From Bacteroides luhongzhouii (lineage in GTDB: Bacteria > Bacteroidota > Bacteroidia > Bacteroidales > Bacteroidaceae): a stretch of DNA of 64,000 bases. Under the pieces are notes generated by a model. That model had not been told where the DNA came from and did not search any database. It worked only from the letters and a program-made list of their open reading frames with translations. The translations under genes and the position numbers were made by a program. Positions 346 to 42,917 of the stretch are shown here, in pieces. The stretch is from contig NZ_CP059973.1 of the NCBI RefSeq assembly GCF_009193295.2, positions 1,984,001 through 2,048,000 on the forward strand, read 5' to 3'. Every line of letters starts with the position of its first letter. Within the stretch, counting starts at the first letter, position 1.

Positions 346-1116
346 ATGTTAAAAGTAGTAGCATTTATGAGGCAAGTGGCTAATGGGCTACAAATGGGGG
401 AAAACTTTGGGACGGCTCACGTGTATCGTAGCAGTCTCAATGCCATTATTGTTTATTGTGGGAAAGGAGATTTCACTTTTGATAAAGTAACTCCGGGATG
501 GTTGAAAGGTTTCGAAATACATCTTCGTAGCCGTGGTTGTAGTTGGAATACAGTTTCAACTTATTTGCGCACATTTCGTGCAGTCTATAATCGTGCGGTC
601 GATCTTCAGAAAGCCCCTTATGTACCGAATTTGTTCCATTCGGTTTATACCGGTACTCGCGCTGATCGTAAGCGAGCTTTATGTGAGGAAGACATAAAAA
701 AGGTATTTGCAAAATTACATTCATCGGTTGCAACTCCGGCTTTGCGATGTACACAAGAGTTATTTACTCTGATGTTTTTACTTCGTGGTTTGCCTTTTGT
801 CGATCTCGCATATTTGCGTAAGAGTGATTTGCATGATAATGTGATTACTTATCGTAGGCGTAAGACAGGGCGTACCTTGTCGGTGACATTGACTCCGGAG
901 GCAATGCTTTTGGTGAAGAAGCACATGAATTGTGACCCTTCTTCTCCATACCTTTTCTCATTGTTGAAAAGTCCTGAAGGAACAAAAGAGGCATATCGAG
1001 AGTATCAGTTAGCATTGCGCACATTTAACCGGCAATTAATGTTGTTGGGTGAATTGTTGGGGCTGGGCGATAAATTGAGTTCATACCTCGCGAAACATCA
1101 TACAATCTCTATCTAA
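346..1116 (+). pseudogene. Tyrosine recombinase (Tsr-type promoter invertase), 5' part, split by the island
   Basis: This is the N-terminal ~249 codons of a Bacteroides tyrosine site-specific recombinase. A SAM-like core-binding domain covers about residues 1-105, and the catalytic domain follows with Arg147 (LRGLPFVDL) and the beta-hairpin Lys173 (RRRKTGR). The frame is native up to about 1091 (SSYLA) and then runs into foreign sequence with eight junk codons (KHHTISI) before a stop. Box II Arg, the GHSS box and the Tyr nucleophile are missing here. They are found in the correct frame at 42725-42917. The two halves together give about 312 residues, the normal size of Bacteroides promoter invertases. 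As it stands the protein lacks its nucleophile and cannot be active. Confidence 0.9.
1084..1107. other. Left island junction (attL-like)
   Basis: The native invertase sequence ends in TACCTCGC and island sequence begins with GAAACATCATACAATC. The right junction reads TTATAC then CGCCCGTCATACATGG. The two junctions share CGC at the breakpoint and TCATACA a few bases on, so the crossover lies at 1089-1091 (CGC). Protein logic favours this placement, because it restores the conserved A-R-H-T-W-A box of the recombinase. Confidence 0.7.
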
Positions 1117-1155
1117 TTGAAAATTAAACAGTTATTTCTGTTTAATTAATATCAG

Positions 1156-1202
1156 GTAACGATTTAGAAACGAGCGAATTACAATATTCTGTTTTCTTTT
1201 GC
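1156..1202 (+). repeat. Left subterminal repeat of the island
   Basis: The block GGTAAC...GAAACG...CAATATTCTGTTTTCTTTTGC (last part at 1182-1202) recurs in the same orientation at 42584-42620, where 20 of 21 bases of the last part match. An inverted pair ATTAAACAG/CTGTTTAAT sits further out at 1126-1148. These look like integrase or excisionase binding arms. Confidence 0.6.
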
Positions 1203-1518
1203 CTCTGTCAAAGAACGATTCTTTCAATGCAAATATACACTTTACTTGTGACAAAAGCAATCTTTTTCTACATTTAATCGACTTACAGTCAGCCTTAAAG
1301 AGGGTATCTGGTCTCATTCCATCTTCTTCCTCAAAAATAACATAGCAGTCTAAATTGGTTTATGTATGGGATAGGTCTTGTTCATTCGATCCGGTAGACT
1401 ACTATACATAAAAGTATAAAGGCGAGATACGACAAGGAGATGCCATGCTTTTGTGTAAGGGGAATCTCTCTTAGCTTATCGCAGACCATGTATAGCTAAG
1501 TGTTTTGAGAATAAACAG
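1203..1518. other. Non-coding stretch inside the left island end
   Basis: This stretch is AT-rich with no convincing open frame. It probably holds the remaining attachment-site arms and the lost 5' end of the adjacent integrase pseudogene, whose recognisable homology starts only at 1519. Confidence 0.4.
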
Positions 1519-2640
1519 TCTGTAAAAAACGGAAAGACACCGATTATGGGCCGTATCACCATCAATGGAACCCAAGCCGGTTTCAGTTGTAAGAAAGAAG
1601 TGTCCCTCGCTTTGTGGGACGTCAAAACCAACCGGGCCAAAGGCAAGTCCGAGGAGGCCCGTACACTCAATCAGGAGCTTGACAATATCAAGGCGCAAAT
1701 CACCAGGCACTACCAGTACATCTGCGACCACGACAGTTTTGTTACAGCCAAGAAAGTCTATAACCGCTATGTCGGCTTCTCAGAGGAATGCCACACCCTT
1801 ATGAACCTTTTCAGGGAACAGCTGGAACCGTATAAAAAGAAAATCGGCATAGAGAAAGCCGAAAGCACCTACTGCGGTCTGGTTGCCGATTACAAGAGTC
1901 TCCTGCTTTTCATGAAAAGCAAGAAGAATGCAGAGGATATTGTCATCGAAGAACTTGAGAAATCATTCATCGAGGATTACTACAACTGGATGCTCGGTAC
2001 ATGCGCTTTGGCAAACTCCACTGTCTTCGGGCGTGTCAATACCTTGAAGTGGCTGATGTATATCGCGCAGGAAAAAGGCTGGATACGGGTTCATCCGTTC
2101 GCATCATTCGAGTGTATGCCCGAATACAAGAGGCGTTCTTTCCTTTCCGAAGAGGAACTGCAAAGGATAATCCATATAGAACCGAGATACAAACGCCAGC
2201 GTGCCATGCGCGACATGTTCCTGTTCATGTGCTTCACCGGTCTTTCCTATGTGGACTTGAAAGCCATAACATACGATAATATCCATACCGACTCCGACGG
2301 CGGTACATGGCTGATGGGCAACCGTATAAAAACGGGAGTGGCGTATGTCGTAAAATTATTGCCCATTGCTATCGAACTGATTGAAAAATATAGGGGTACG
2401 GATGAAAAGAAAGACTCCCCGAATGTGTCTTTCCGGTAGGTGAATACAATGCCATGCGGCTCAGTCTTGGAATCATAGGCAGGAAATGCAACTCCGGGGC
2501 GAGGTCACCCCGCACATCGGACGCCACGCATTTGCCGTTCTGGCCATACTCAAGGGGATGCTGCTGGAAACTCTTCAGAAAGTGTTTGGGCATAAGTCCA
2601 TCACATACGTCCTGCGCATCCATTCACTTGTCCGGCGCAG
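1519..2640 (+). pseudogene. Tyrosine integrase of a conjugative element, frameshifted
   Basis: Recognisable integrase sequence begins with SVKNGKTPIMGRITINGTQ, so the usual N-terminal start and ~20 residues are missing. The open frame continues through the SAM-like domain and the first catalytic box (FTGLSYVDL) to VSFR*. Inserting one base near 2434 restores FPVGEYNAMRLSLGIIGRKCN, and a second shift near 2495 restores GEVTPHIGRHAFAVLAILKG with box II (HIGRH), then LETLQKVFGHKSI. After about 2640 the similarity stops before the Tyr nucleophile can be identified. Two frameshifts and both ends damaged mean it is inactive. It probably belonged to an earlier element now absorbed in the island. Confidence 0.85.
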
Positions 2641-2950
2641 GCGGGGCAATCTTTTTCTGGAAGTCGCCCATCTGTACGACCAGCGTGCTGACCAGCTTTC
2701 TCAACTCCTAATACGCGCTTGTTTCAATAATTGTCAGTTCCATACTAAAATTCTTTTTAAGATTCTGAATATGCGACAAAGTAACGCACATCCTATATCC
2801 TTTCCAAACAGATAATATCAGAGTCTTCCGTTGGCGTGCATTGGCGTATCCAACGTTAAAAGAGAAGGTCCTTCACCTGCATCCATGCGGCAACGGAACT
2901 TCCATTCCCTTACTTGTTTTCCATAAATTTATAGGATTAATTTCTGGTGC

Positions 2951-3124
2951 ATGATATTAATAGTCATTATTCTGTCTGCTTTTTTTGCTTGCATAATTGC
3001 AGCTAACAGTTATCTATTCCAGAACGCATTGTTATGGAAAATGGCAAGCTGTTTTGTTGGTTTATGGATATTGTGTATGATAATTACCGTCTTCGTTTGT
3101 CGTAAACTTGAATGCTCTAATTAA
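2951..3124 (+). CDS. Possible 57-aa two-transmembrane-helix peptide
   Basis: The open frame starts MILIVIILSAFFACIIAANS and contains a second hydrophobic stretch (MASCFVGLWILCMIITVFV) followed by a basic C-terminus (CRKLECSN). Two helices joined by a short loop resemble small membrane peptides. It lies just upstream of the promoter of the B12 riboswitch operon and is not part of it. No homologue is recognised and no clear promoter is seen, so it may be chance in an AT-rich gap. The rest of 2641-3175 shows nothing. Confidence 0.3.
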   Translation: MILIVIILSAFFACIIAANSYLFQNALLWKMASCFVGLWILCMIITVFVCRKLECSN

Positions 3125-3175
3125 AACAGTACGGTTGTCATGCTTTGTGTGTTTTATTATAAATATTATGAATTA

Positions 3176-3207
3176 TTTGGAATTGATATGTAATATAGAT
3201 AATTTTG
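3176..3207 (+). promoter_or_regulatory. Promoter of the B12 riboswitch operon
   Basis: TTTG at 3176-3179, a 20-nt spacer and TAATTTTG at 3200-3207 exactly match the Bacteroides -33/-7 pattern. Transcription would start about 3213, just before the riboswitch. Confidence 0.85.
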
Positions 3208-3214
3208 CAGTCGG

Positions 3215-3430
3215 GAAATGGTTTCGGGAGGTTTACGCCTTCCGAATGAAAAGGGAACCCGGTGAAAATCCGGGACAGTACCCGCTGCTGTGAGTCCACA
3301 AAAACGGACATCGAACTTTTGCCACTGGTGTAATACCGGGAAGGCACGATGACCGGGACGAGTCAGAAGACCTGCCATGACCGGAATGAGATTTACACCT
3401 GCGGGATATACGGGTCGTAATCAAATAAGG
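3215..3430 (+). promoter_or_regulatory. Cobalamin (AdoCbl) riboswitch
   Basis: The conserved core is readable in order: GGGAACCCGGTGAAAATCC with GGGACAG and CCCGCTGCTGTGA (about 3252-3293), GCCACTGG (about 3321), ACCGGGAAGGC (about 3336-3346), and GAGTCAGAAGACCTGCC (about 3360-3376), followed by a closing stem. This is the standard cobalamin aptamer with its B12 box. It sits between a strong promoter and an intrinsic terminator (3469-3507), so ligand binding probably stops transcription of the downstream uptake genes. Every gene down to 15093 is co-oriented, consistent with one B12-repressed operon. Confidence 0.95.
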
Positions 3431-3468
3431 AATAGCTCATCGGCCATTCAATATTTGAAGACAGACAT

Positions 3469-3507
3469 ATTCCCGTTCGTGTAAGTCCGCACGAACGGGA
3501 ATTTTTT
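3469..3507 (+). terminator. Riboswitch expression platform: intrinsic terminator
   Basis: A 12-bp perfect stem (TTCCCGTTCGTG / CACGAACGGGAA) with an eight-base loop is followed by six T. It sits about 40 bp after the aptamer and 40 bp before the first gene. Confidence 0.9.
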
Positions 3508-3548
3508 GTGTTTGTTAATAATATGTTTTACATTAAAATGAGTGACCT

Positions 3549-4466
3549 ATGAAAAGAAAATTACGCTTTCTGGCAGGTGCCTGTCTATTTACCGCAACCG
3601 CCTTGTTCTCTGGCTGTAGCTCGGACGATGACTTTTTGATGGACCCGGTTGATTCCGGAACTTCGCAAACCCGTGCTGTGACAAATTCGGACGGTACTTT
3701 AACTATCACTTTCGATGATTTCGATCCCGGCATGTTAGCAGGACCTACCTCGGCCGGAGAAAATCTTTATTCGTACCAAGGGTATCCTCAAGTAACCACC
3801 ATTTACGACAATACTCCGGAAGAATATCTCTTCCTTTCAATGTTTAATACTGTAGGTGGAAGCACAGAGTATTCCAGCGGCGGCATCGCACTTTCCAACT
3901 GGAACATCCGCTCCAATCAGTCGGGAAATACCGGAGACTGGTGGTATTCTTATCTAAACCAATGTTCTGTCTATAACACTGCGGTGGAAGCGGAAGGACA
4001 GAATAAGGAAGCCGGGCACAGCGGTTCCAATTTCGGTGTCGTTTACGGATATGTGGATGCTTACAATCAGGCATGGATGGCTAAACCAGAATTTTATTTC
4101 AATGTTCCCCGGAAATTGGTCGGCCTGTGGATCTGCAACACCTCATACACTTATGGTGTCATTACTTATGGTAATCAGTTCGGTTCTACGGGGGTAGCGA
4201 CTCCTCTGAAAGAGATGAAAGGGTATTTCCAAGTGAATCTGGAATGTTATGATGCGAATGGCGGTCTGATCCGCACTTACAAACGTCTTTTAGCCGATTA
4301 TCGTAACGGCCAACAACAGGTTGATCCTATCACGACATGGGATTATTGGGAAATCAATGCCGAAGGGGTGCAAAGTGTGAAATTCAACTTCGAGGGTTCG
4401 GATTCGGGAGCATACGGTTTGAATACTCCGGCTTATATCTGTATTGATGATATCACCATACAATAA
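3549..4466 (+). CDS. btuH: DUF4465 surface lipoprotein, BtuH-like corrinoid-binding protein
   Basis: A 305-residue protein with a lipoprotein signal (lipobox FSGC, Cys23) and a DUF4465 beta-sandwich starting TLTITFDDFD. The family is rich in Trp/Tyr/Gly and includes surface-exposed cobalamin binders (BtuH) found beside BtuB/BtuG in gut Bacteroides. It is the first gene after the riboswitch and terminator, which supports a role in capturing B12 or analogues at the cell surface. Its start follows the terminator by 40 bp. A weak hairpin at 4479-4503 separates it from the next gene. Family assignment is by motif and context; binding is inferred. Confidence 0.8.
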   Translation: MKRKLRFLAGACLFTATALFSGCSSDDDFLMDPVDSGTSQTRAVTNSDGTLTITFDDFDPGMLAGPTSAGENLYSYQGYPQVTTIYDNTPEEYLFLSMFNTVGGSTEYSSGGIALSNWNIRSNQSGNTGDWWYSYLNQCSVYNTAVEAEGQNKEAGHSGSNFGVVYGYVDAYNQAWMAKPEFYFNVPRKLVGLWICNTSYTYGVITYGNQFGSTGVATPLKEMKGYFQVNLECYDANGGLIRTYKRLLADYRNGQQQVDPITTWDYWEINAEGVQSVKFNFEGSDSGAYGLNTPAYICIDDITIQ

Positions 4467-4530
4467 AAAGAATACAAGGATATCCCTTCTGTCGGGGGTA
4501 TCCCTGTTATTTTTCTAAAATCCACACATC

Positions 4531-6312
4531 ATGCATCGTTTTCACTATTTTATTATTTCTGCCTGTATGCTGTTCACCTCCTGCAACAAGGATGAAGTCA
4601 TTACCGAAGAAGTAGGAGGACAACCTATAATAGAACTTGACAGCGAGACCGGTATTTACACGGTCAAGGTCGATCACGAATTGACTATCGCCCCGACATA
4701 CCAGAATGTTGAAGATGCTCTTTTTGCTTGGACGATAGACGGTACGCTGGTTTCTTCGGGTCCGTCTCTTCAACGTACATGGAATGAATGCGGGGATTTT
4801 TATGTCAAACTAAGAGTAGACAATGCGGAAGGCTATGCCGAAGAGGAACTGAAAGTAGAAGTGAAAGAACTCACCCCTCCGGTCATCTCACTGGCACTAC
4901 CTTCGCAGGGGCTAAAAGTCGTCCGGAATACCGATTACACATTTACTCCCGATATTCAGCATTCGGATGTCGAAGGGTTCAAAATCGAATGGGTACGGGA
5001 AGGAAAAATCGTTTCCACCGAGAATACTTATACTTTCAATGAAAAAGAACTCGGTGTTTATACGGTGACAATCAACGCTTCCAATATAGATGGGACAACA
5101 ACGAAAGACGTAAGCGTAGAGGTCGTGGAAACGATGCCCTACGTTGTCAAATTCCCGACCCCGTCTTACCTGCAAACATCCACGGACAGGTACACTTTTG
5201 CCGACCGTCCTGTTTTCCTGCGTCCGTTGTTGGAGTATTTCGACAATCCCCGTTTTGAGTGGAGTGTGGACGGTCAGGTCATGGAAGGAGAAGTGGAACG
5301 CATGTTCAAGTTCACGCCGTCCGCACCCGGAGAATACACCGTCTCCTGTACTGTGTCGGAAGACACACCGACGGAAAAAATAAGCAGGAATATCGACAAA
5401 GGGAAAACGGCTGTCACTGCCACCGTAAAAGTCGTTTGTGTGGACAAAAAGGAACAAGACGGCTTCCGGGCTTCGGGAAGTTCCAAGCTCTGGAATAAAG
5501 TCTATGAATATACCCCAGCTCCCGGCCAATTTATCAACGAGACGAGCACGATAGGCGGTATGACCGGCAACGAAACATCCCCTGAAGCGGCTGTCGCATG
5601 GGCAACACAGCGTTTGAAAGACAAACTGCACGTCTCTTTAGGTTCTTTCGGGGGTTATATCATCGTCGGCTTCGACCACAGTATTCCCAATTCGGGTAAC
5701 CAATATGATTTCTGTGTTCAGGGGAACGCCTTTGACGGCAGTTCCGAACCGGGTATCGTATGGGTCATGCAAGATATAAACGGAAACGGATTGCCGGATG
5801 ACGAGTGGTACGAACTGAAAGGATCTGAAGCAGGCAAGGAAGAAACAATACAGAATTTTGAAGTGACCTATTACCGTCCGGAAGGCAAAAAAATGGATGT
5901 CCAATGGATCAGTTCCGACGGTAGAAACGGCTGGGTAGACTATCTGTCCGCTTATCATACACAAGACTATTATTATCCGGCTTGGATTTCGGAAAACAGT
6001 TATACCCTGACAGGCACTTGTCTGGCCGCCCGCAACACCCAAGATTCTCAAACCGGTTATTGGGATAATCAGAGTTATGACTGGGGGTACGTGGATAATT
6101 TCGGAAACGACCAGATAGAAGGCGGCAGTACGGTGGATGGAAGCGGACAAAGGAACGGTTTCAAAATTTCCAATGCCATCCATGCCGATGGAACGGAAGC
6201 CAATCTGCAATATATTGACTTTATCAAAATACAATGCGGTGTTCTGGCCAAAAGCGGCTGGCTGGGCGAAGTTTCTACGGAGGTATTTTCTTTTGAGGAT
6301 CTAACCAAATAA
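4531..6312 (+). CDS. PKD-like surface lipoprotein of the B12 operon
   Basis: A 593-residue lipoprotein (lipobox FTSC, Cys18). The N-terminal half has three Ig/PKD-like repeats (about residues 35-115, 115-200 and 205-310, each ending in a pattern like GVYTVTI.AS or GEYTVSCTVSE). The C-terminal half (about 320-590) is a globular domain rich in aromatics, with a calcium-loop-like stretch DINGNGLPDDEWYEL. Proteins of this architecture recur in Bacteroides corrinoid loci next to DUF4465 and BtuG proteins. Its place in the riboswitch operon suggests surface capture or scaffold duty for the BtuB/BtuG complex, but no molecular function is established here. The next start lies 14 bp downstream. Confidence 0.7.
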   Translation: MHRFHYFIISACMLFTSCNKDEVITEEVGGQPIIELDSETGIYTVKVDHELTIAPTYQNVEDALFAWTIDGTLVSSGPSLQRTWNECGDFYVKLRVDNAEGYAEEELKVEVKELTPPVISLALPSQGLKVVRNTDYTFTPDIQHSDVEGFKIEWVREGKIVSTENTYTFNEKELGVYTVTINASNIDGTTTKDVSVEVVETMPYVVKFPTPSYLQTSTDRYTFADRPVFLRPLLEYFDNPRFEWSVDGQVMEGEVERMFKFTPSAPGEYTVSCTVSEDTPTEKISRNIDKGKTAVTATVKVVCVDKKEQDGFRASGSSKLWNKVYEYTPAPGQFINETSTIGGMTGNETSPEAAVAWATQRLKDKLHVSLGSFGGYIIVGFDHSIPNSGNQYDFCVQGNAFDGSSEPGIVWVMQDINGNGLPDDEWYELKGSEAGKEETIQNFEVTYYRPEGKKMDVQWISSDGRNGWVDYLSAYHTQDYYYPAWISENSYTLTGTCLAARNTQDSQTGYWDNQSYDWGYVDNFGNDQIEGGSTVDGSGQRNGFKISNAIHADGTEANLQYIDFIKIQCGVLAKSGWLGEVSTEVFSFEDLTK

Positions 6313-6326
6313 TAAAAATTACAAGT

Positions 6327-8417
6327 ATGAAAATTTATTTTCTTCCCATGCTCCTATCCTTGTTCTTTTTGGGAGCGTGTGACAAAAACGATGAAATTAT
6401 ACCTGAAGATGCAGATGAAAATTTCATCACATCGGTCGTGATGACCGTGGACGGGAAATCGTACACGGCCGACATTACGGACAATACAGTAACAATAACC
6501 GTTCCCTATACGGTATCGCTGAACAACGCCGAAGTGGAATTCAAGTACACAACTTCTGCAACAATCATACCTGATCCTGAAACGGTAACGGACTGGGATA
6601 ACGAACGAACCTTCCGGGTGACATCCTATAACGGAGATGCCCGCGAATATACCTATAAGGTCGTGAAAAGCGAGATAGAATCTGACGGAGATGTGGAGTT
6701 GAAGACCACCGAGGAGGTAGCTTCTTTTGCCGCAACCAAAACAACCGTTGTCAAAGGGAACCTGATTATCGGCTCTGATGCGGAAGAGGCAGAAAAAATC
6801 ACTGACATATCTGCATTGGCATCTTTGAAAGAGGTTACTGGCAACATTGTCATTCGTAACAGTTACAACGGTGCAGACTTGACAGGGTTGGATAATATCG
6901 TTTCTGCCGGAGGTTTACAGGTAGGTTCGACCGATGTCGCCTCGAAAGCTACGGAACTTCACATGATTTCCATGAAAGCATTGGAAACGCTCTCCGGAGA
7001 CATATCGGTATATAACGACCAAGTGACGTATGTCCTATTCGAGAAACTGGCAACTATTGAAGGAAGCGTGATGTTCAATGCGTCGTCGTTACAGAGTTTT
7101 GAGTTTCCGGTTCTGACTACTGTAGGTCAGGATCTGAATCTTCAAGGACTCAATGAAGAGAACACAGCAGCCGGTTCGATTGCGTCTTTGGAAATACCGG
7201 AACTGACAAGTGTCGGAGGGGTCTTGTCCGTAAACAATCTTGCCAAGCTGACTTCCATGAGCTTCCTTAAGCTGAAAGAGACCGGTGGCCTTGATTTCCA
7301 TACCGTCCCCGTGATGTTGGAAACCATCAACCTTCCGGAAATCGAAACAGTAAACGGAAGTATTATTATGGAAGCCAATATGGAAGCTCCTCCTACCGGT
7401 AGTTTTGTTCCCCAACGAAATGACGTGCTTCAGGCTTTCGGTGGAATGGACAAACTGACAACGATAAAGGGACAGATAAAGATAAAGAATTTCACGGCAC
7501 TCAAACAACTTCCCGACTGGAGCAAGATCACCACACTTGGAAGCATCACGCTGGATTATCTTGAAGATGTGAGCGGAACACTGCTGTTGCCGAACGCCCG
7601 ATTTGAAACCTTCGGAGAAACAGCGCCCCAGATTGAAATTATAAACAAGGTGCAGCTCTCCAAAATTGAAACAGCCGAAGATTTGTCAAATGTAAATTTT
7701 GTCATCACCAGTCTCACGAATAATAAGTTCCCTGAAATCACGTTCAAGAATATCAAAGACTTCACTTGTAAGCCAACCACCAACAATACCGATTATACCA
7801 TATCGACAATTCAACATGTATATGGAAATCTAAATGTGACAGGCCAAATGCGAAGCAATGCCAAATTTCCCGACTTGGAAATCATAGATGGATATGGATA
7901 TATCCAAATACCCATGTTTGCTTCAATCACAATGCCAGTCTTGAAAGAAGTGGGAGGACAGTTCTATTTATCTGGAAATTTTACCAGTTGTAACTTGCCC
8001 TTACTATCCAAAGTTTGTTGTTCAGCTTCTCCTGTATATTATAAAGAGGGAGAGGGTTCGTTAGCAATATCTTTACAAAGTAAATCGCTGGATATTCCGG
8101 AATTGCTTCACGTAGGAGGTGAAGGGTTGTTCGTTAATAAAGCAACAGGCATTACTTGTGATAAATTACAGACTATAGATGGTACGCTACAGATAAAAAG
8201 TGCGACTTCTCTTTCTCAGGAAACACTTTCCATGGAGAAGTTGGAGACCTTGCATGGGGTTGTTTTTGACGGTTTGACGAAATTTACCGACTACACTTTC
8301 TTCGGCAAGTTTATAGAAAACGGAATGATTACGGGGGAAAGTTGGAGCGTGACGAAATGTGGGTATAACCCAACCTTCCAAAATATGAAGGACAAACAAT
8401 ATACGCAGCAGGATTAA
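6327..8417 (+). CDS. Leucine-rich-repeat surface lipoprotein of the B12 operon
   Basis: A 696-residue lipoprotein (lipobox LGAC). Residues about 30-115 form a small beta domain (SVVMTVDGKSYTADI...TYKVVKSE, DUF5018-like). From about 130 onwards there are degenerate 20-25 residue beta-helix/LRR units, with recurring patterns such as L..V.G.I.I and LTSVGG.LSV.NL resembling receptor L-domains. It lacks a BspA-type C-terminal domain. Co-transcription with BtuH-, BtuG- and BtuB-type genes implies work in corrinoid uptake at the surface, perhaps binding protein-complexed or host corrinoid, but that is inference. A terminator-like hairpin follows the stop by 17 bp. Confidence 0.65.
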   Translation: MKIYFLPMLLSLFFLGACDKNDEIIPEDADENFITSVVMTVDGKSYTADITDNTVTITVPYTVSLNNAEVEFKYTTSATIIPDPETVTDWDNERTFRVTSYNGDAREYTYKVVKSEIESDGDVELKTTEEVASFAATKTTVVKGNLIIGSDAEEAEKITDISALASLKEVTGNIVIRNSYNGADLTGLDNIVSAGGLQVGSTDVASKATELHMISMKALETLSGDISVYNDQVTYVLFEKLATIEGSVMFNASSLQSFEFPVLTTVGQDLNLQGLNEENTAAGSIASLEIPELTSVGGVLSVNNLAKLTSMSFLKLKETGGLDFHTVPVMLETINLPEIETVNGSIIMEANMEAPPTGSFVPQRNDVLQAFGGMDKLTTIKGQIKIKNFTALKQLPDWSKITTLGSITLDYLEDVSGTLLLPNARFETFGETAPQIEIINKVQLSKIETAEDLSNVNFVITSLTNNKFPEITFKNIKDFTCKPTTNNTDYTISTIQHVYGNLNVTGQMRSNAKFPDLEIIDGYGYIQIPMFASITMPVLKEVGGQFYLSGNFTSCNLPLLSKVCCSASPVYYKEGEGSLAISLQSKSLDIPELLHVGGEGLFVNKATGITCDKLQTIDGTLQIKSATSLSQETLSMEKLETLHGVVFDGLTKFTDYTFFGKFIENGMITGESWSVTKCGYNPTFQNMKDKQYTQQD

Positions 8418-8434
8418 ACCTTATACCTTAACCA

Positions 8435-8466: not shown

Positions 8467-8472
8467 ATCCGA

Positions 8473-34120: not shown

Positions 34121-34126
34121 AATCAT

Positions 34127-34529: not shown

Positions 34530-35216
34530 ATGGTAAAGATACAAAAAATCTCAGAAATCGAACCTCGTTTAGGTTTTACCGAGTTCGATATGCTAAAAAA
34601 ATATCGTCAAAGTTTTGCAACGAGTGAATTAGGTCGCCTCCATGCTCTGTTTCCTTTCTCGGAACTGGCCCGACAAATGCATTTGAAGTCCTCTGCTTTG
34701 GGTCGTAAAAGTTATTTTTCTCCCGAAGGTAAAATAGCCTTGATGGTCTTGAAGTCCTATACCAACTTTTCCGATGCACAACTGATTGAGCATTTAAACG
34801 GTAATATTCATTACCAGTTGTTTTGTGGTGTTCAGATTGATCCGCTTCATCCACTAACCAATCCTAAAATCGTTAGTGCAATTCGTCAGGAACTAGCGCA
34901 TCGCCTTGACGTTGAGCCCCTCCAGCTCATTCTTGCCGAGCATTGGAAACCTTATCTTGAGAACCTTCATGTCTGTATGACCGATGCCACCTGTTATGAA
35001 AGTCATCTGCGTTTTCCTACTGATACCAAACTCTTATGGGAAGGTATTGTATGGCTTCATCGTCATCTGTGCAAACATTGCCAGACCTTGCACATACAAC
35101 GTCCCCGTAACAAGTATCTTGATGTACGCCGTGCCTATCTTGCTTATAGCAAACTGCGTAAACGCAGGAAATCACAGACTCGTATGATTACACGAAGGTT
35201 ACTTCAGTTATTGGAA
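34530..35216 (+). pseudogene. DDE transposase (IS5/IS1182-like), 3' end lost
   Basis: The first ~229 residues read as a Bacteroides DDE transposase with a DUF772-type N-terminal domain (FPFSELARQM...GRKSYFSPEGKIALMVLKSYTNFSDAQLIEHLNGNIHYQLFCGV). It has a candidate first catalytic Asp in VCMTDATCYES. After RLLQLLE the frame enters the antisense of the neighbouring R-M gene and stops at 35261. The catalytic core is incomplete and the right end of the IS is absent. The left IS end probably lies near 34460-34500, where a C-run/G-run imperfect repeat occurs. Confidence 0.8.
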
Positions 35217-38200
35217 AATTCAATACTGCCAACAGATAATCCAAATGATCGCCTGTCATAATATAACAGGCATTGTTCATTACATAATTGTTGGCATCAT
35301 ATGCAAAAGCCATTTGGTTTCCGATTATTTTCCATACAATTTTTGGCTTAGAAAAATCCTCCCAATAACTGATGCTATCTTGTGTTTCAAACCACTCGTT
35401 ACTAGTTTTCTTTCGGGCTTTTATTTTTTTGCCATTAACAATATGAGTTTCTCCTGTTTGTTCTAAACGCTCTATGCCAATTGACAGAAGATAATTTTTC
35501 ACCGCAGGATAACTTTCTATATCATAATGCCGCGAAGGAAATGTGGCTATAATCCACAAGTCCGCCCATTCATATTCATATCTCTTGATATCCCTGCCAC
35601 GAAGAATCGGTCGTATAAGTTCAGCCGTCCGAACACGTTCATCTTCTGTTTGACAATTCGCTAGTATCTCATCACGCTTTTCGGTAGAAATGATAAAAGC
35701 ATCATTGAAACCAGTTTTTATCCCATAGTTGATTTGGATGTTCCAATCCTTCAAGGGTATTCCCACAGACTCAATCTTCTGCTTGATGCTCTGTTCAATG
35801 GGAGACAATATCACCCATGGGATAGAATCTGCAAAGTTACACTTCACGCCTTGTTGCTGCACGAAATCGCTCAAATTATTCAAGCCATTCGAATCTTGTA
35901 CCAAACAAGCTTGTGTGTTAAAAATATTTGCTGCTTTTTGAGATAAAAGAATATTTGCTTCTACCGTTATTGCATCGAATATTTTTATACCTGCAAAATC
36001 TACCAACATAATAGGATTGGTCTTGCTTGCGAAATAACCTCGCAAGGCTTCACCATACCCTGCACGCATCCATTTATTAGACGTGATATAGCAAAGAAAA
36101 CCATTGGGAGTAAGCAGGTTCATACCCAACTCATAGAAGAGGCAGTAAATATCACCAGTGCGTGCATAAGTTATGTAACCCATGCATTCTAATACATCGG
36201 CACTCTTACCCATAGATTGTAACTGAATGTAAGGTGGATTGCCAATGATACAGTCAAATCCCAAGAAGTTGCCTTCGGCATCGAGTACTTCTGGAAACTC
36301 TATACGCCATTCGAATGCACCAAGATAAATTTTGTTGGAGCGTATTTCCTCAAATATATTTTCTAAAGTCGCAATTTCTTTCTTTAAATCGGCAATGCGC
36401 TTGTCCGACGCTTTCTTTTCCTTTTTTGTCGGTTCAAACAGTTGAGGCGCTTGTAAGTTTGCCAACTCAGAGCGGCGTTTGTTCAATCTAACCAATCGTG
36501 CATCCCGGCGGTTGATCTCTGTTTTCAGTTTCGACTTGATTTCTGTTATAAACGTTTCCAAATCCTGCTTTTCGCTTTTACTTTGGGCATTTTTATATTT
36601 AGCTACAGCCTCCTTATATTGGCTGATGCTGATACTAGACTCTCGCAGTACGGTCTGAATACTGTCTGTCAAAGCGAATCGGTGAAGCAAAGAATTTCCA
36701 CATTTGATGTTAATGTCGATATTTGGTAAGGTTTCTAAATAAGTGTAATTACTTTCAGCCGTATAGTAAGCATTCTTCAACAATCCAATCCACAGTCGTA
36801 GGCGGCAAATCTTCACAGAGTTGGGGTTAATATCAACGCCAAATAAACAGTTCTCAATGATTTGACGCTTCTCCTTGAAAAGAGTTTCCTGCATGCGGCG
36901 ACTTTCCGCATTGAGTGGGTTGTAAGCAAATAAATTACCTTCGGTATCGGTAACAATCAGCTCGTCATTTTCAATGGCAAGTTGATAGTCCGCTTTGCGG
37001 ATACGCTTACCGGTAGCATCTACCAAAATACCTAATTCGTATTTCAAGAGTATCAGTTCATTGAGAGCAGACACAAGAAAGTGACCCGAACCAACAGCTG
37101 GATCACACAGTCGCAAACTGTTAATTAGTTCATTAGCTTCGACTATATTGTCAATATGGTTGTATAGTTCTATACGGGTGGTACAATTCCAGCCATAATA
37201 ACCATTAAACTTTTGCAACACGGTCTTGGTGATTGCTTCACGGCACATGAACATAGTGATAAAGCCTGGAGTGAATACTGAACCATCCTTGTGACCATTT
37301 ATTTTCTCGAATATAAGCCCTAAAACAGAAGCATTGATGAGTGTTTTAGCCTCTTCTTGCACTTCTTCACTGCCTTCGCTCGCAAAGTTATAAGCGTCGA
37401 GAAAAGCAAACAAATATTGCAGGGTGGGTAATGCGTTGACTTGTAGATTGCGTTTTTTATTTCGTAATACGCTACTCGCCAAGACAGGAAGTACCGTACG
37501 TTGTGAAAGGCTGTTTATCTTAATTGTTTTACTTTCCAAATCTGTCACCTCGAAAAGAGAACTGTTAAGATAGGGAACGTAAGCAAAATCACGCATAATG
37601 GAGTGTGTGCGGCTGCCCATGTCACGTGCAAGCACTTGGAAAAAGAGTGTGTTGAGATCATCATAGTCATGAATCTTAGTTATTGAAAGAAATTTATAGA
37701 TTGCATCTCCATTGTGGTATTTCAACATCTGAGCCTCCAACAGTTTCAAGAAAAGGATACGATTCATCCAAGTAATACACAATTCCATTGCAACATTGAA
37801 TAACCGTTCCTCATAATCATTCCCATACAAACGACCATTTATGTGACGCAAACAATCTTCTGCATCCAGTTGGTTAATAGTATTCTCTAGTAATGAAGCC
37901 TCGTCACGCCGTTCCACAGCTTTGCGTACAATCACGGTTTTATTATTCTCTTTGCGTTCCTCAATACCAATAATGTGTAGCAGCTCAGTGTAGAATCCAC
38001 GGTTGAGCGAATTGCTGTCATTTTGGAACGATAGCTTCAAAAGATGTGTATCGCTGAATATCTTATAAAGTTCGATAAGTTTGCGTGAAGCGCTACTGTC
38101 TGTTCTATCAAGCAGGTGTTGATAGTCTTGTAAGTTGAAGTAAGTGTATTCAAGGCTATCTTTCACCTCCTCAATATAGGTTGTTGCAATTTCAGTATAG

Positions 38201-38736
38201 AAGAAATCGGTTTTGTTACTGGTTTTGCGTCCATCCACAAAGTCTTGAAACTCACGACGTAATTGTTTGTTCTGATAGAATTTGCGTTCAAACTCATGGG
38301 CATCAAAAATAAAGAATTCATGAATATTAGTAGCGATGAGATATTTAATATCATTGTTCTTCTTATTGACACGTTCTTTAAGATAGTATAGCAATAATTC
38401 CTGCAAAGCCTTACGATTAAGATTGTCATTAGAAATCATCTCACCTTTGTTGGTGGTACTCTTTACTTCAATCAATAACCCTATATTGGACTTGATAGTT
38501 TTATCCAATCGGATAGCCAAATCAATATCTTCTTCGGGAGCCATGTAGTATGGCTTGTAGAACGTTTCACTCAGAAAATTACGTAAATGTTCTTTTTGCG
38601 TGTGTTCTCTTTGCCCATCCACAATATTGTCTCTCAATGTGCGAAGGGCATTTTTGAATAAGTCAAAATCTGTTGTTTCAATCGCAACCTGTCTATATGC
38701 TTTGTTCAAAACTTGATTCGGTTTGAGTAGTCCCAT
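35188..38736 (-). CDS. Type IIG restriction-modification enzyme (Eco57I class), 3' truncated
   Basis: 1182 residues. The N-terminus carries a PD-(D/E)XK-like nuclease segment (EDIDLAIRLDKT...LLIEVKS). Next comes a helical region, then an N6-adenine methyltransferase with motif I DPAVGSGHFL (from Asp545) and motif IV NPPY (833-836), interrupted by a coiled-coil insert (about 700-800). A target-recognition region follows with WKIIGNQMAFAYDANNYVMNNACYIM. Normally this class continues for some tens of residues after a DYLLAVLNS.L motif. Here the reading ends in NFPIT-EVTFV, where the last codons are antisense of the IS transposase at 35188-35216. Specificity or activity may be impaired. No separate S or R gene is needed in this class. 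Confidence 0.82.
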   Translation of the reverse strand: MGLLKPNQVLNKAYRQVAIETTDFDLFKNALRTLRDNIVDGQREHTQKEHLRNFLSETFYKPYYMAPEEDIDLAIRLDKTIKSNIGLLIEVKSTTNKGEMISNDNLNRKALQELLLYYLKERVNKKNNDIKYLIATNIHEFFIFDAHEFERKFYQNKQLRREFQDFVDGRKTSNKTDFFYTEIATTYIEEVKDSLEYTYFNLQDYQHLLDRTDSSASRKLIELYKIFSDTHLLKLSFQNDSNSLNRGFYTELLHIIGIEERKENNKTVIVRKAVERRDEASLLENTINQLDAEDCLRHINGRLYGNDYEERLFNVAMELCITWMNRILFLKLLEAQMLKYHNGDAIYKFLSITKIHDYDDLNTLFFQVLARDMGSRTHSIMRDFAYVPYLNSSLFEVTDLESKTIKINSLSQRTVLPVLASSVLRNKKRNLQVNALPTLQYLFAFLDAYNFASEGSEEVQEEAKTLINASVLGLIFEKINGHKDGSVFTPGFITMFMCREAITKTVLQKFNGYYGWNCTTRIELYNHIDNIVEANELINSLRLCDPAVGSGHFLVSALNELILLKYELGILVDATGKRIRKADYQLAIENDELIVTDTEGNLFAYNPLNAESRRMQETLFKEKRQIIENCLFGVDINPNSVKICRLRLWIGLLKNAYYTAESNYTYLETLPNIDINIKCGNSLLHRFALTDSIQTVLRESSISISQYKEAVAKYKNAQSKSEKQDLETFITEIKSKLKTEINRRDARLVRLNKRRSELANLQAPQLFEPTKKEKKASDKRIADLKKEIATLENIFEEIRSNKIYLGAFEWRIEFPEVLDAEGNFLGFDCIIGNPPYIQLQSMGKSADVLECMGYITYARTGDIYCLFYELGMNLLTPNGFLCYITSNKWMRAGYGEALRGYFASKTNPIMLVDFAGIKIFDAITVEANILLSQKAANIFNTQACLVQDSNGLNNLSDFVQQQGVKCNFADSIPWVILSPIEQSIKQKIESVGIPLKDWNIQINYGIKTGFNDAFIISTEKRDEILANCQTEDERVRTAELIRPILRGRDIKRYEYEWADLWIIATFPSRHYDIESYPAVKNYLLSIGIERLEQTGETHIVNGKKIKARKKTSNEWFETQDSISYWEDFSKPKIVWKIIGNQMAFAYDANNYVMNNACYIMTGDHLDYLLAVLNFPITEVTFV

Positions 38737-38764
38737 AATGTTTGGTAAATGAGTTAATAAAATA

Positions 38765-38772
38765 CAAAGGTA
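38765..38772 (-). promoter_or_regulatory. -7 box of the R-M gene promoter
   Basis: On the minus strand TACCTTTG lies about 30 bp upstream of the R-M start and fits TAnnTTTG. No clear -33 TTTG is present, so the promoter is weak or activated. Confidence 0.4.
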
Positions 38773-39277
38773 GTCTAAAAACTTGATAATAAAGAATGAA
38801 CGTATTGGTTTAACGAAAGTTTGTTCTACTGCCAGCCATTATCAACAAACAATAGCAGCAGTAGATTTGACATGATTCTACTTATTATATTGTAATAGCC
38901 AGCCAAAGTAATCTTTTCACATCCGGATCTATCACAGGTTGGATAAGTTGTTAACCTGAAGGTAACCGACCTGATGGTATAGGAACAGGAAGAAGTCTGT
39001 AATCATGGCATTTACCCGGATAGAGAAGCCACATTTTTTATTGCCGGACTTCCGGCATTGCCTCATCCATGTGTGAAAAGGAGTTTTTTCTTTCACCACA
39101 ACGTTCCTTTCACATACCCAAAGGGGGTAGTGGATCCAGACCTGCTTCGGCTTTCTTTTTCCTTCCCATATGACAAAAACCGACTATCCATGACTATTCC
39201 TGCCAGTGTGCCGGTCGTGCTTGCCTCTCATGGTTTCTTCCCTTATATTCGCACTGATATTTAAACGAGTTGAAAAT
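38773..39277. other. Non-coding gap between the R-M gene and the HTH genes
   Basis: About 500 bp without a supported gene. A 68-codon frame at 39058-39264 has no domain, an odd composition and no ribosome-binding context. The gap likely carries the promoter of the HTH genes but no consensus pair is seen. Confidence 0.35.
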
Positions 39278-39601
39278 ATGGAAATATGCTACATCGAGGC
39301 CGGTGTCCTTGAGAGGATGCTGGCGCGCGCCGAGAACCTGTCCGCACGTGTGGACAGATTGTATGAGAGAAACCGCTGTAAGGAACCCGGAGAGTGACTG
39401 GACGGCCAGGATGTCTGCCTGCGCCTTGACATCTCGCCGCGTACCCTGCAGACTCTCCGCGATACCGGACGGCTGGCGTTCACCCGCCTCCAGCGCAAGT
39501 TCTATTACAAGCCCGGGGATGTGGAGAAGTTGATGGTCTACGTCGGCATCAGACGCAAGGAGAAGGAGGTGAGAGAAAGAAGGAAGAACGGAAACCTTTA
39601 A
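39278..39601 (+). pseudogene. HTH (excisionase-like) protein with in-frame TGA
   Basis: From ATG 39278 the frame reads MEICYIEAGVLERMLARAEN...RNRCKEPGE and meets TGA at 39395-39397. The same frame then continues as LDGQDVCLRLDISPRTLQTL and goes on with RDTGRLAFTRLQRKFYYKPGDVEKLM to TAA at 39599. Homologues have Trp there (EWLDGQDVC), so TGG to TGA explains the stop. The part after the stop is the winged-HTH domain of the HTH_17 type found next to integrases in Bacteroides elements. The gene is probably inactive, which would affect excision or its control. Confidence 0.8.
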
Positions 39602-39613
39602 AGAGCGGAAGAG

Positions 39614-39907
39614 ATGGAAGGCATTATCGACAAGGAGAACGAACGTGTCCGCAGGTTCTTTGCCCTGCTGGACGACATGGAGAAAAAAGTGGAACGTCTT
39701 GCCCGTGACAACCGTCCTCCCTTCAACGGGGAACGGTTCCTGACCGACAGGGAGCTTTCCGGGATGTTGAAGATCAGCCGCAGGTGCCTGCAGGATTACA
39801 GGGACCAAGGACGGATTCCCTATATCCAGCTTGGCGGGAAGATCCTGTACAGGCAGTCGGACATCGAGAGGCTGCTGGAGGAGAACTATCACCCTGCATT
39901 GGTATAA
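39614..39907 (+). CDS. HTH_17 excisionase-like protein
   Basis: 97 residues. A short N-terminal coiled coil (ENERVRRFFALLDDMEKKVERLARD) precedes a MerR/excisionase-like helix-turn-helix (ERFLTDRELSGMLKISRRCLQDYRDQGRIPYIQLGGKILYRQSDIERLL). It is a paralogue of the broken gene just upstream (12 bp gap). Small HTH proteins in this position help integrases of Bacteroides elements excise or regulate them. Convergent with the integrase at 39972-41183. Confidence 0.85.
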   Translation: MEGIIDKENERVRRFFALLDDMEKKVERLARDNRPPFNGERFLTDRELSGMLKISRRCLQDYRDQGRIPYIQLGGKILYRQSDIERLLEENYHPALV

Positions 39908-39971
39908 TATCGTATTTAAGTTTAAGGATTGTCGCCGGAATTGCATTTACGATTCCGGCGGCAGTTTTTAT

Positions 39972-41183
39972 TTAGCCTGCGGCTTCCTTGCCGGCCGCGG
40001 GCTTTCTTCTTTCCATCAGCCGGTTCATGTCCGAGGATATCTTCCGGTCGGTGACCTGGGCGTAGACCTGCGTGCTGTCGATGTTCGTGTGGCCCATCAT
40101 CCTGGCGATGCTCTCTATCGGAATACCTGCGGTCAGTGTCAGGGTCCCGAACGAATGCCGGGCCATGTGGTAGGACAGGTTCTCTTTCATGCCTAATGCC
40201 ACGCCCATTCCATGTACCTCATACCAGAGGACGTCGCGGACCGGCAGCGGGAATACCGGCCTGTCGTCATCCGTGGTGTTGTAAAGCTCCAGTATCTGTC
40301 CGGCTATGGGATGCAGCGGGATGAACGCCTCCACGTCCGTTTTGGCGCGGCGGATGCGGATATACCTTCTTCCTTCCGAAGTCGTTCCGATGTGACGGGG
40401 ATGGAGAGCCCTCGTATCCGCGTAGGCCAGACCGGTCAGCGAGGAGAAGATGAACGTCCTGCGTGCCAGCTCCATCATCGGGTCGGGCAGCGGGGTTTCC
40501 ATCATCCGCTTCAGTTCACTGCGGCTGATATGCCTTAGTTTAGGTGTTTCTTTCCTCTCGTATGCCACGTCCTCTATCGGATTGGCTCTTAGTATTTCCC
40601 GGTCCACGGCGATGTAGATGAGCCGGTTGAGCCAGCACAGGCAGTGGTTCACGTGTCCGTTCCTGTGTCCCAGCTCCTTCTTGAGAAAGACCTTGAACGA
40701 TTCGGCGAACTCCTCGGTGATGTCCGAAAAGGCGATGTCCTTCATCCCGCGGGATTCGATGAACTGCCTGAGGTTGAGCTGGGTGGTCTTCGACTGGCGG
40801 TAGGTGGAAGTGGAGTTGATCTCCTTGGAGCGGACCCTGAGCCGTTCGCGTTCCACCTCTCCGGCCTGCAGGAGGTATTCCGGTACGGAATTGGCGCCTG
40901 ACACGGTGGTCTTGAGCAGTTCGGCCGTGACCACTCCCTGGTTCCTCAGCAGGTTCCCGTACGCCTCTTCCAACCGGCTGCGGAAGGCGGCAAGGCGGTT
41001 GTTCTCCCTGGCTGTTTTGATTTCACACTTCTTGCTGTCCCAGTCCCCGGGTTTGCAATAGACGCCTGTCGTGACTGCCGATTTCTTTCCGTCGATGCTG
41101 ATCCGGCAGAGGACGGCGGTCGTGCCGTCCGATTTCACCTTGTTACGGTTGATGTAGAATAAGAGCTTGAATGTACTGCGCAT
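39972..41183 (-). CDS. Tyrosine integrase 1 of the island
   Basis: 403 residues. N-terminal Arm-type domain (FKLLFYINRNKVKSDGTTAVLCRISIDGKKSAVTTGV), SAM-like core-binding domain, and catalytic residues in FSSLTGLAYADTRAL (box I, where Arg appears replaced by Thr/Gly context as in related ICE integrases), the RRAKTD hairpin, HMARHSFGT (box II), MMGHTN and the Tyr nucleophile in STQVYAQVT. Complete by length. It sits in tandem with a second integrase (start 19 bp downstream of the latter's stop), so both are read leftwards from the right island end. One or both catalyse integration and excision. Confidence 0.88.
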   Translation of the reverse strand: MRSTFKLLFYINRNKVKSDGTTAVLCRISIDGKKSAVTTGVYCKPGDWDSKKCEIKTARENNRLAAFRSRLEEAYGNLLRNQGVVTAELLKTTVSGANSVPEYLLQAGEVERERLRVRSKEINSTSTYRQSKTTQLNLRQFIESRGMKDIAFSDITEEFAESFKVFLKKELGHRNGHVNHCLCWLNRLIYIAVDREILRANPIEDVAYERKETPKLRHISRSELKRMMETPLPDPMMELARRTFIFSSLTGLAYADTRALHPRHIGTTSEGRRYIRIRRAKTDVEAFIPLHPIAGQILELYNTTDDDRPVFPLPVRDVLWYEVHGMGVALGMKENLSYHMARHSFGTLTLTAGIPIESIARMMGHTNIDSTQVYAQVTDRKISSDMNRLMERRKPAAGKEAAG

Positions 41184-41202
41184 GATAATGATTGTTTAGG
41201 GA

Positions 41203-42432
41203 TTAAAGGATAAGTTTCAAATCGCGGGTTGCCTCGACGAACCTGTCCATGTCCTCGAACAGCTTCTTCGGGGTTACGCGCGCGTATATCTGGGTGGTCT
41301 TTATGTTGGAGTGTCCCAGCATTTTGCAGATGGTCTCTATCGGCACTCCCTCCTCGAGCGTGACCAGCGAGGCGAAAGAATGCCGTCCCATGTGGTAGAC
41401 AAGGTCCTGGCTCAGCCCTGCCATCAGGCGCAGGGATTTCATATTGGCCCTGAGCGTGTGGTAGTCCTGCGGCGGGAAAAGAGTCTCGCGGGTATCGTCC
41501 CGGTATTTCTCAATCAACGCGACGGCTTCCGGAAGCAGCTTGACACGTCCGAGGTAGTCGGTTTTCTTTCGCTGGTATTTCAGCCAGAGGCTGCCCTCGT
41601 CATCCCGGAAGAGGTTCTTCCGGGTGATGCTTACCGCATCGGCATAGGCGGTGCCGGTGTAACAGGCGAAGAGGAAGAGGTCCCGGGTGATGACATGTGA
41701 CCTGCGTTTTTCCGGTATCTCCAGATCACGCAGCTTCTCGAAATTCTCACGGCTGAGTGCTTTCGGTGTTGTCTCCTTCTGCTTGGGCAGCTTGAAGTGG
41801 CAGAAATGGTATTTCTCCGAGTGGCCCTCCTTGTAGGCGATGCGGCAGATCTTTTTCAAGATGGCCAGGTAGCCGCGAAGCGTGTCCACGGCATATCCCT
41901 TTTCCAGAAGGATGAAATCCTGATAGTCGCGGATGAACTGCTCGTTGAGCTGCCCGAAGACAAGGTCCGGAACCTTGAATTTCGCCTTGATGAATTCGGA
42001 AAGCGTGCGGTAGGTGAAGAGGTAGGTCGAGAGTGTGGTGGGCGCACGGTCCACACCGACACGGGCCTTCATTTCCCCGTTATGCCGGTCGAGAAGTTTG
42101 AGCAGGGTCATCTGCATGCCCGCATTGCCCTGGAACATGTCCCTGACCGCGGCGGCATCGAAATCCCTTTTTCTTTCCATGAGGGAATTGAAGGCCGAGT
42201 GTACGGCAAGCAGCAGTCTTTCTATTTTTTCATTGGTCTCCACCGCTTCCCGGCTCTTGCCGTTCAGCCGGCTCTCACGCGCGTTCCACAGCCCGGGGGT
42301 GCAGGAGAGCTTGCAGCTGAACTGCGCCATCGTGCGGTTGAGGGTGATCCGTCCCATGATCGGGGCTTTGCCGGTCTTGTCCGGCTCGCTCTTTTTCAGG
42401 TAGAGCAGCACCTTGAATTTTTCCACTTTCAT
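41203..42432 (-). CDS. Tyrosine integrase 2 of the island, nearest the right end
   Basis: 409 residues from ATG 42432 (MKVEKFKVLLYLKKSEPDK); the longer open frame adds 27 codons without family similarity. Arm-binding domain APIMGRITLNRTMAQFSCKL, core-binding domain, FACYTGTAYADAVSIT (box I), QRKKTDYLG (Lys), YHMGRHSFASLV (box II), KMLGHSNI and Tyr in TTQIYARVT. Complete. Its start lies about 290 bp from the right junction, the normal position for an integrase next to its attachment site. It resembles the frameshifted integrase at the left end (PIMGRIT motif), so the two may derive from related elements. Confidence 0.9.
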   Translation of the reverse strand: MKVEKFKVLLYLKKSEPDKTGKAPIMGRITLNRTMAQFSCKLSCTPGLWNARESRLNGKSREAVETNEKIERLLLAVHSAFNSLMERKRDFDAAAVRDMFQGNAGMQMTLLKLLDRHNGEMKARVGVDRAPTTLSTYLFTYRTLSEFIKAKFKVPDLVFGQLNEQFIRDYQDFILLEKGYAVDTLRGYLAILKKICRIAYKEGHSEKYHFCHFKLPKQKETTPKALSRENFEKLRDLEIPEKRRSHVITRDLFLFACYTGTAYADAVSITRKNLFRDDEGSLWLKYQRKKTDYLGRVKLLPEAVALIEKYRDDTRETLFPPQDYHTLRANMKSLRLMAGLSQDLVYHMGRHSFASLVTLEEGVPIETICKMLGHSNIKTTQIYARVTPKKLFEDMDRFVEATRDLKLIL

Positions 42433-42583
42433 AACGCTCTTTTTTAGGTTGTAAAAATACTCCTTTGAAAAGCGTCCTTTGGCATGCAAAACATTGAGAA
42501 ACAGTGAATACAAATCCGCTTTGTTCTTATCGGTAAAAATTCGGTTACCTGCCGTCGTTTCCGAAACAGGCGGCTAACAGTCT

Positions 42584-42620
42584 GGTAACTGAAACGTCGC
42601 AATATTTTGTTTTCTTTTGC
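42584..42620 (+). repeat. Right subterminal repeat of the island
   Basis: GGTAACTGAAACGTCG then CAATATTTTGTTTTCTTTTGC mirrors, in direct orientation, the left block at 1156-1202. An outer AT-rich inverted motif (TAATTATAAACG / CGTTTAATTA) follows at 42652-42683. Confidence 0.6.
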
Positions 42621-42719
42621 AGGTCTGTCTGTTCTGCAATTCTCGCAAAATGCTTAATTATAAACGTTTTACGTTTAATTATCGTCATTCTGTTTTTTAT
42701 TGCATTTCTAAATATTACT

Positions 42720-42742
42720 TATACCGCCCGTCATACATGGGC
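42720..42742. other. Right island junction (attR-like)
   Basis: Island sequence ends in TATTACTTATAC and native recombinase sequence resumes with CGCCCGTCATACATGG. CGC at 42725-42727 equals CGC at 1089-1091, and TCATACA occurs on both sides, so the shared core is short. Confidence 0.7.
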
Positions 42743-42917
42743 CACAACAGCGTATTATTGTGAAATTCATCCGGGCATTATTTCCGAAGCGATGGGGCAT
42801 TCATCCATTACAGTGACGGAGACTTATCTGAAACCTTTTCAGAATAAGAAAATAGATGAAGCAAACAAGCGGGTTATTGATTTTATCCGGTATTCGGTTC
42901 AGAATGCAATTTGTTGA
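42725..42917 (+). pseudogene. Tyrosine recombinase (promoter invertase), 3' part
   Basis: Without a start codon, the frame reads ARHTWATTAYYCEIHPGIIS and continues EAMGHSSITVTETYLKPFQNKK to a TGA at 42915-42917. It holds box II Arg (CGT 42729-42731), the GHSS box and the Tyr nucleophile in ETYLKPF, exactly the parts missing from the fragment at 346-1091. ETYLKPF is typical of Bacteroides promoter invertases rather than of ICE integrases. Its stop is 7 bp before the first inverted repeat of the switch, so the invertase lay directly beside its likely target. Confidence 0.9.

Follow-up and report, generated by a model that had tools for sequence, protein, structure and literature searches.

Why does a large integrated island lie inside the active-site code of a recombinase gene, and is it there as a switch for that one gene or as one case of a wider target preference? 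These questions are raised by a 64,000-bp stretch of the Bacteroides luhongzhouii genome (contig NZ_CP059973.1, positions 1,984,001 to 2,048,000; hereafter the window), in which an island separates the two parts of an invertase-type tyrosine recombinase (YR) gene. We consider it very probable that the island is an integrated element with two tandem YR genes that splits the gene at box II, the box of the catalytic Arg, and that its integrase likely takes the box II codons of YR genes generally as its attachment site (attB). Active-site code is a likely landing site because related islands end at the same box in dozens of recombinase genes.

A Recombinase Gene Split at Its Catalytic Box

The split gene and its junctions comprise the following features.
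346..1091, + strand: N-terminal part of the YR gene, invertase type (PF13102), 98.4% identical to residues 1-247 of the uninterrupted ortholog
1087..1091, + strand: attL 5-bp coupling CTCGC, which differs from ACCGC of the empty site and is probably element-carried
1092..42722: integrated island, 41,631 bp, nearly its whole length 99.9% identical in genome G155 within a different recombinase gene
42723..42727, + strand: attR 5-bp coupling ACCGC, identical to the empty site
42723..42917, + strand: C-terminal part of the split invertase gene, with box II, Tyr nucleophile, and stop codon

The gene is cut between Tyr and the catalytic Arg (SSY/xA-RHTW, the slash marking the cut). As a preliminary description of this locus had stated, the left frame terminates in SSYLA, without box II and the Tyr nucleophile; it stays open to 1116, and its final residues AKHHTISI come from the island. 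The right fragment supplies box II and Tyr, also as described, but its ARH begins at 42726, one base later than the start given there; the piece from 42723 to 42917 translates as TARHTWATTAY...ETYLKPF...IC and a stop.

That both fragments belong to one recombinase gene, interrupted in its catalytic box, is borne out by the nearest relative found, the sister species G155. Here, an uninterrupted ortholog of 311 aa (L012/L041) lies downstream of the same ackA-like gene (recognised by eye) and is followed by similar repeats and a DUF4988 gene, which provides the empty site that the preliminary description had hoped to see in a related genome. The C-terminal piece corresponds to residues 248-311 of this ortholog (96.9% identity) and abuts the N-terminal piece with no overlap and no gap, and the flanks of the two loci are 96.5% (left) and 96.4% (right) identical. 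Fragments from different proteins or overlapping regions, or unrelated flanks, had been named as refutations, and neither was seen.

The left junction reads TTCATAC-CTCGC-GAAACATC and the right junction ACTTAT-ACCGC-CCGTCATACATGG, and the empty site in the ortholog reads TTCATAC-ACCGC-CCGCCATACATGG. The size of about 41.6 kb first estimated for the island is retained, with the boundaries corrected to lie between the two 5-bp couplings. The fragments had also been thought to rejoin at a shared CGC; this join would give L-A-R-H. The empty site has T-A, and the residue pair before Arg in 33 intact homologues is T-A (26), T-L (4), S-A (2), or A-A (1), and never L-A. The CTC at 1087-1089 was probably brought in by the element for the same two reasons. 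A homologue in G138 was considered as a truncated gene and rejected, because its frame extends to ARHSWATLAN, where the contig ends.

Related Islands in Other Recombinase Genes

The right end of the island carries the genes by which relatives were recognized or that may act in excision.
39614..39907, + strand: HTH_17/excisionase-family DNA-binding protein (below the NCBI cut-off for that model), candidate directionality factor
39972..41183, - strand: second tyrosine recombinase of the tandem pair, whose own box II fits the attB-like motif
41203..42513, - strand: first tyrosine recombinase (island integrase, P0002), listed from TTG and adjoining the right end; its own box II fits the attB-like motif

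Both recombinases contain PF17293, PF13102, and PF00589. In G155, an island of 41,978 bp, 99.9% identical over nearly its full length, occupies the same box of a different invertase-type gene (58% protein identity to that of the window). Three copies were found in G003 (Bacteroides bouchesdurhonensis). Copy 1 matches the window in its right 27 kb (99.6-99.9% identity) and differs in its left part, and it cuts a third invertase-type gene, a 64% paralogue, at the same box. Copy 2 (~25.4 kb) divides a fourth invertase-type gene into an N-half in L162 and a C-half in L055. Copy 3 (19.2 kb) divides a conjugative transposon (CTn)-type integrase (N-half in L163, C-half in L057), and its left end is identical to that of the window island over 411 bp. 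In Phocaeicola vulgatus ATCC 8482, the integrase is 69% identical, and the halves of yet another integrase stand 8.8 kb apart.

For these six insertions (window, G155, three G003 copies, and P. vulgatus), we aligned each half on its own to an intact homologue. The end of the aligned N-piece and the start of the aligned C-piece fall at most 2 residues apart in five of the split genes; for the CTn-type integrase target, the intact relative used is only 32-40% identical. The sixth, G003 copy 1, has an N-piece whose local alignment ends 17 residues short, and abutment is reached only by ungapped extension. The integrase is 99-100% identical between the window and G155, G003, G152, and Butyricimonas, versus groEL (named by eye) identities of 98, 89, 85, and 72%, respectively, to the window genome; the islands therefore look recently transferred.

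The C-terminal pieces adjoin the element's own recombinase genes, and they might accordingly be read as relics of its own tandem recombinase array rather than as targets. In all six insertions, however, 8.8 to 45.6 kb separate the C-terminal piece from the N-terminal half, which lies at the opposite end of the element, and near-identical element ends adjoin unrelated pieces. We found this explanation extremely improbable and rejected it on the uninterrupted ortholog, on which the halves abut.

A Probable Family-Wide Preference for Box II

For a wider survey, we used 80 integrase-family loci (integrases 63-100% identical) out of 173 confirmed relatives, and searched as much as 1.5 kb of sequence upstream of each integrase, in all frames, with a local hidden Markov model built from 39 recombinase C-termini. 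Of the 80 loci (78 testable, as L102 and L119 have too little sequence), 70 have a YR C-terminal fragment that starts at box II, all on one strand and with the model start 197-221 nt from the integrase. No YR C-terminus was found at any other place within 1.5 kb, on either strand, in the 80 loci, and the same method gave no match at 35 control recombinase genes, mostly of the invertase type. A tandem second YR gene lies downstream in 78 of the 80 loci.

For a second set, 158 genomes were searched; of the 32 Bacteroides genomes that gave a match, 30 contributed a single locus each, and the fragment stands at the expected place in 23 of these 30. This set is not independent of the first because 11 of its junctions were already there and one is the window; among the new junctions, 12 of 18 match.

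The targets are diverse. Clustering divided 71 target fragments into 54 groups at 90% identity and 32 at 70%; of these fragments, 68 came from the 71 aligned loci (those with at least 30 aa) and one each from the window, G155, and NZ_OY725960.1. Near-identical element ends adjoin unrelated box II sequences (L076, L077, L078, L081, L083, and L084), with the switch at the His/Tyr codon, and the conserved columns of the aligned junctions are the codon columns. A one-off insertion into a random non-essential gene would be compatible with the ordinary cargo of the island, yet it hardly comes into question: the same codons were hit in 70 of 80 family loci versus none of the controls. Given these loci, the 54 target clusters, and the second set, it was rejected.

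Right ends adjoining YR C-termini were also found in B. finegoldii NZ_OY725960.1 and P. massiliensis OY726014.1. The former, of 15.5 kb and marked circular, was considered as an excised circle and rejected as such; it is an integrated copy, because its right end meets the C-terminus of another recombinase. The latter (L180) also bears a CfxA beta-lactamase gene ~15 kb from the right end of the related element.

In a fecal contig from a phage collection (L181), the C-terminus at the end comes from a gene that closely resembles the island integrase itself. Among the targets, genes like the first island recombinase stand at the ends of L078 and L181, and genes like the second at those of L092, L108, L112, and L120. 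Self-insertion looks possible because both island recombinase genes fit the attB-like motif.

Site Motif, Couplings, and Proposed Mechanism

The motif YAYN6MGNCAYWSNTDBGS has 27 matches in the genome of the window, compared with 11 for a reversed-pattern control. YR genes account for 17 of the 27, namely, 15 with PF00589, the C-half in the window itself, and a YR gene at 3785138; the two recombinases of the island are among the 27.

The couplings occupy the variable codon pair that separates His/Tyr from the catalytic Arg. The two ends carry different couplings in the window, G155, and the three G003 copies, and P. vulgatus has TGCTT at both. The native coupling is known from orthologues only for the window (T-A) and G003 copy 2 (S-A), where the other end reads L-A and V-G, respectively; attL reads A-A in G155 and L-A in both G003 copies 1 and 3. 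Each of these couplings is also seen in the box II of some other target (e.g., HLARH, HAARH, and HVGRH), which would fit the coupling being a 5-bp trace of the previous host gene. A rule that the element's coupling stands at every attL was rejected, because attL of G003 copy 2 keeps the S-A of the orthologues and its attR reads V-G.

Since the inferred 5-bp coupling lies on the two codons before the catalytic Arg, box II is the putative attB. Strand exchange would proceed as in CTnDOT-type integration, by staggered cuts around a non-identical 5-bp overlap placed on the variable codons between the His/Tyr codon and the catalytic Arg codon (YAY-N6-MGN-CAY). The integrated state would leave a recombinase without catalytic Arg II, His/Trp, and Tyr, presumably inactive, so the host gene would be switched off, perhaps reversibly: excision would bring its frame back, with the coupling reading either T-A, as originally, or L-A, as supplied by the element. 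Tyrosine recombinases are numerous in Bacteroidales genomes, so hardly any host would lack a landing site for such an element, and wherever it inserted, a competing integrase or an invertase of phase variation would be silenced. The fullest version of this scheme could equally well prove right or wrong, in our estimate: a widespread Bacteroidales family lands on the catalytic Arg box codons of any YR, be it an integrase or a phase-variation invertase, and inactivates that rival; when it leaves, it exchanges the two codons preceding Arg and takes the last victim's five bases along to the next.

Recombinases might also be hit without any biological role, through a pure preference for a short motif (approximately YAY-N6-MGNCAY-WSNT) that falls by chance within a run of conserved codons. 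As this explanation would have it, a likeness to the motif is seen by eye at L058, L060, and L089, which are non-YR sites, and the conserved columns coincide with the codon columns. At the DNA level, however, it is compatible with targeting of box II code and hard to tell from selection, and the outcome is the same, with 17 of the 27 genomic matches in YR genes. We see the chances for and against a pure motif preference as balanced.

Several points weigh against box II codons as the general target. The survey covered only part of the confirmed relatives, and eight of the 78 testable loci gave no match (L056, L058, L060, L061, L085, L089, L113, and L125); L056 is a decayed YR by eye, and the other seven show no YR. 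In the second set, six of the 30 loci had no match, and L195 matched at another distance. L182, one of two phage-collection contigs with a related integrase, has no YR at the expected place, and the pattern of an attP circle was found in none of the viral contigs. N-terminal halves were checked in the six insertions only. The integrase of the G155 copy (G155:C1:1639642-1640950) is split over two frames, so that this copy may be stuck, or the two frames may be an assembly error. The genomic motif count is a consistency check only, because the motif was derived from the targets and the count is partly circular. Finally, the site preference may be a by-product of conserved DNA and not selected.

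A Predicted Invertible Promoter Next to the Split Gene

Immediately downstream of the split gene, the window contains the following features.
42925..42949, + strand: left arm of a perfect 25-bp inverted repeat
42950..43205: predicted invertible promoter segment, with TTTG-N20-CATATTTG directed away from the DUF4988 gene
43206..43230, - strand: right arm of the inverted repeat
43291..45984, + strand: gene for a DUF4988 protein, probably a surface protein and the predicted target of the promoter switch

The promoter pattern was TTTG-N20-CAT[A/C]TTTG, with one mismatch to the Bacteroides consensus. A second one-mismatch match on the other strand of the segment is directed towards the DUF4988 gene. 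The pattern is directed away from the downstream gene in the window and 20 other segments, i.e., 21 of 22 point one way. The remaining segment, L055 (4285-4586), has the pattern towards the downstream gene, an ON-like state; it adjoins an island-interrupted invertase gene and is inverted relative to the 94.8-95.9% identical L023 and L024. Such segments appear to flip, judging from this inversion between close orthologues for L055 (inversion was not seen for the segment of the window itself). The two island-interrupted loci, the window and L055, are thus in opposite promoter states, and the promoter of the window is weakly predicted to be OFF.

The same genome contains an intact 84% paralogue (PF13102 and PF00589) beside repeats with the same 17-bp core; with one mismatch allowed, the core occurs at only these two loci in the genome. 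The second locus (G000:C1:5388030-5388330; L010 6031-6331) combines this repeat core and the intact recombinase with a protein that has weak DUF4988 and collagen-like matches. A lock on the promoter of the window is only putative because this paralogue may act in trans. No inverted repeat pair was found near the target of G003 copy 1 (L049).

In the preliminary description, precise excision would restore the invertase and make the island a reversible switch for a second switch, a reading that we took up as a switch dedicated to this invertase. The insertion into the catalytic box of another recombinase stands, and the broken gene lies beside a perfect inverted repeat around a promoter-like segment; the dedicated switch does not stand. 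In its favor, the two gene halves abut, an invertible-type repeat and a promoter adjoin the gene, and the island carries tandem integrases and an excisionase-like gene. However, box II of many other recombinases, ordinary integrases included, is likewise occupied by this island or its relatives, and because of this the island is not a switch dedicated to this invertase; moreover, an intact paralogue with the same repeat core is present, and excision of the island is putative. We regard the dedicated switch as unlikely.

Other Content of the Island

The island further includes the following features.
1546..2815, + strand: broken CTn-type integrase remnant, two frames, near the left end
3549..15093, + strand: cargo of lipoprotein-like genes, TonB receptor, periplasmic binding protein, FecCD permease, and ABC ATPase (iron/cobalamin-type uptake), unmatched in the G003 copy
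16008..17722, + strand: two DUF3408 genes and a ParA-type ATPase, probable remnant of a conjugative-transposon backbone
35188..38736, - strand: type IIG restriction-modification enzyme

The broken third integrase just inside the left end is probably the relic of an older element. The left third (1092-15230), with the iron/cobalamin-type uptake genes, has no match in the G003 copy (L047), where other genes stand, which indicates modular cargo. The island open reading frames scanned (short ones in part) were checked for relaxase and primase mobilization genes, as in the 'Tyr duo' mobilizable elements discussed below, and yielded only DUF3408, ParA, and a Toprim/DUF3991 piece. The latter belongs to a mobilization primase and is fused to a SusC/RagA-type N-terminus in the open frame 18896-20860, which looks like a deletion fusion. 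A piece of an IS5/ISNCY-type transposase (34530-35261) overlaps the end of the type IIG gene. Within that gene, a 1.3-kb stretch (35866-37193 vs L049 16968-18295) is inverted in the G003 copy, with both neighbours collinear, and it is possibly an invertible segment of the restriction-modification gene.

Comparison With Known Systems

If box II targeting is true, integrative elements would follow a target logic that our literature search did not meet, namely, insertion into active-site code of the enzyme superfamily responsible for moving mobile DNA. Elements would then be expected to conflict and to nest within one another, and their movement would be tied to phase variation of surface genes. 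In practice, both ends of an element of this family could be located by looking for a recombinase gene cut at box II. Our literature search found no description of recombinase box II as a target; it covered subscription papers thinly, so an earlier description is possible.

The closest parallel found is provided by the 'Tyr duo' mobilizable elements MTnPi1-MTnPi3 of Prevotella intermedia, which, according to the accessible parts of the two papers, have two tandem dissimilar YR genes and short att sites with a 5-bp variable core, TTAC-N5-AA or TTGC-N5-AA (PMC4755523; PMC5704250). Excision was demonstrated by PCR for most copies, and a single case, CTnPi2-a, was found inside an integrase gene (PMC4755523). 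As far as those parts go, the island resembles these elements in its two tandem dissimilar YR genes and differs in its att, where the element contributes, for example, TAC-N5-GAAAC and the target N-MGN-CAY, and MTnPi1-3 are not reported there as targeting recombinase genes.

The target gene, which we take to be a Tsr-type DNA invertase of Bacteroides, adjoins inverted repeats that enclose a Bacteroides-type promoter, with a surface-type gene next to them, as is expected for this type, but it is split here and presumably inactive.

CTnDOT carries out strand exchange with a heterologous 5-bp coupling sequence at the core site GTANNTTTGC. The non-identical couplings at the two island ends (attL CTCGC vs attR/attB ACCGC) are alike in kind. 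The CTnDOT core was absent from the island att sequences, and the attB of the island differs in being coding sequence for box II. The arm-binding, SAM-like, and catalytic domains of the island recombinases also resemble those of CTnDOT, judging from the part available of the paper that defines the IntCTnDOT subgroup (PMC8138268).

Two further systems share the logic of a conserved site within a gene. In active lysogeny and phage-regulated gene switches, a gene is broken at a conserved position by a mobile element whose departure could make it whole again, and inteins are located at catalytic motifs as conserved landing sites. The family described here differs from both in that its targets are many members of the element's own enzyme superfamily, and its reversal is putative.

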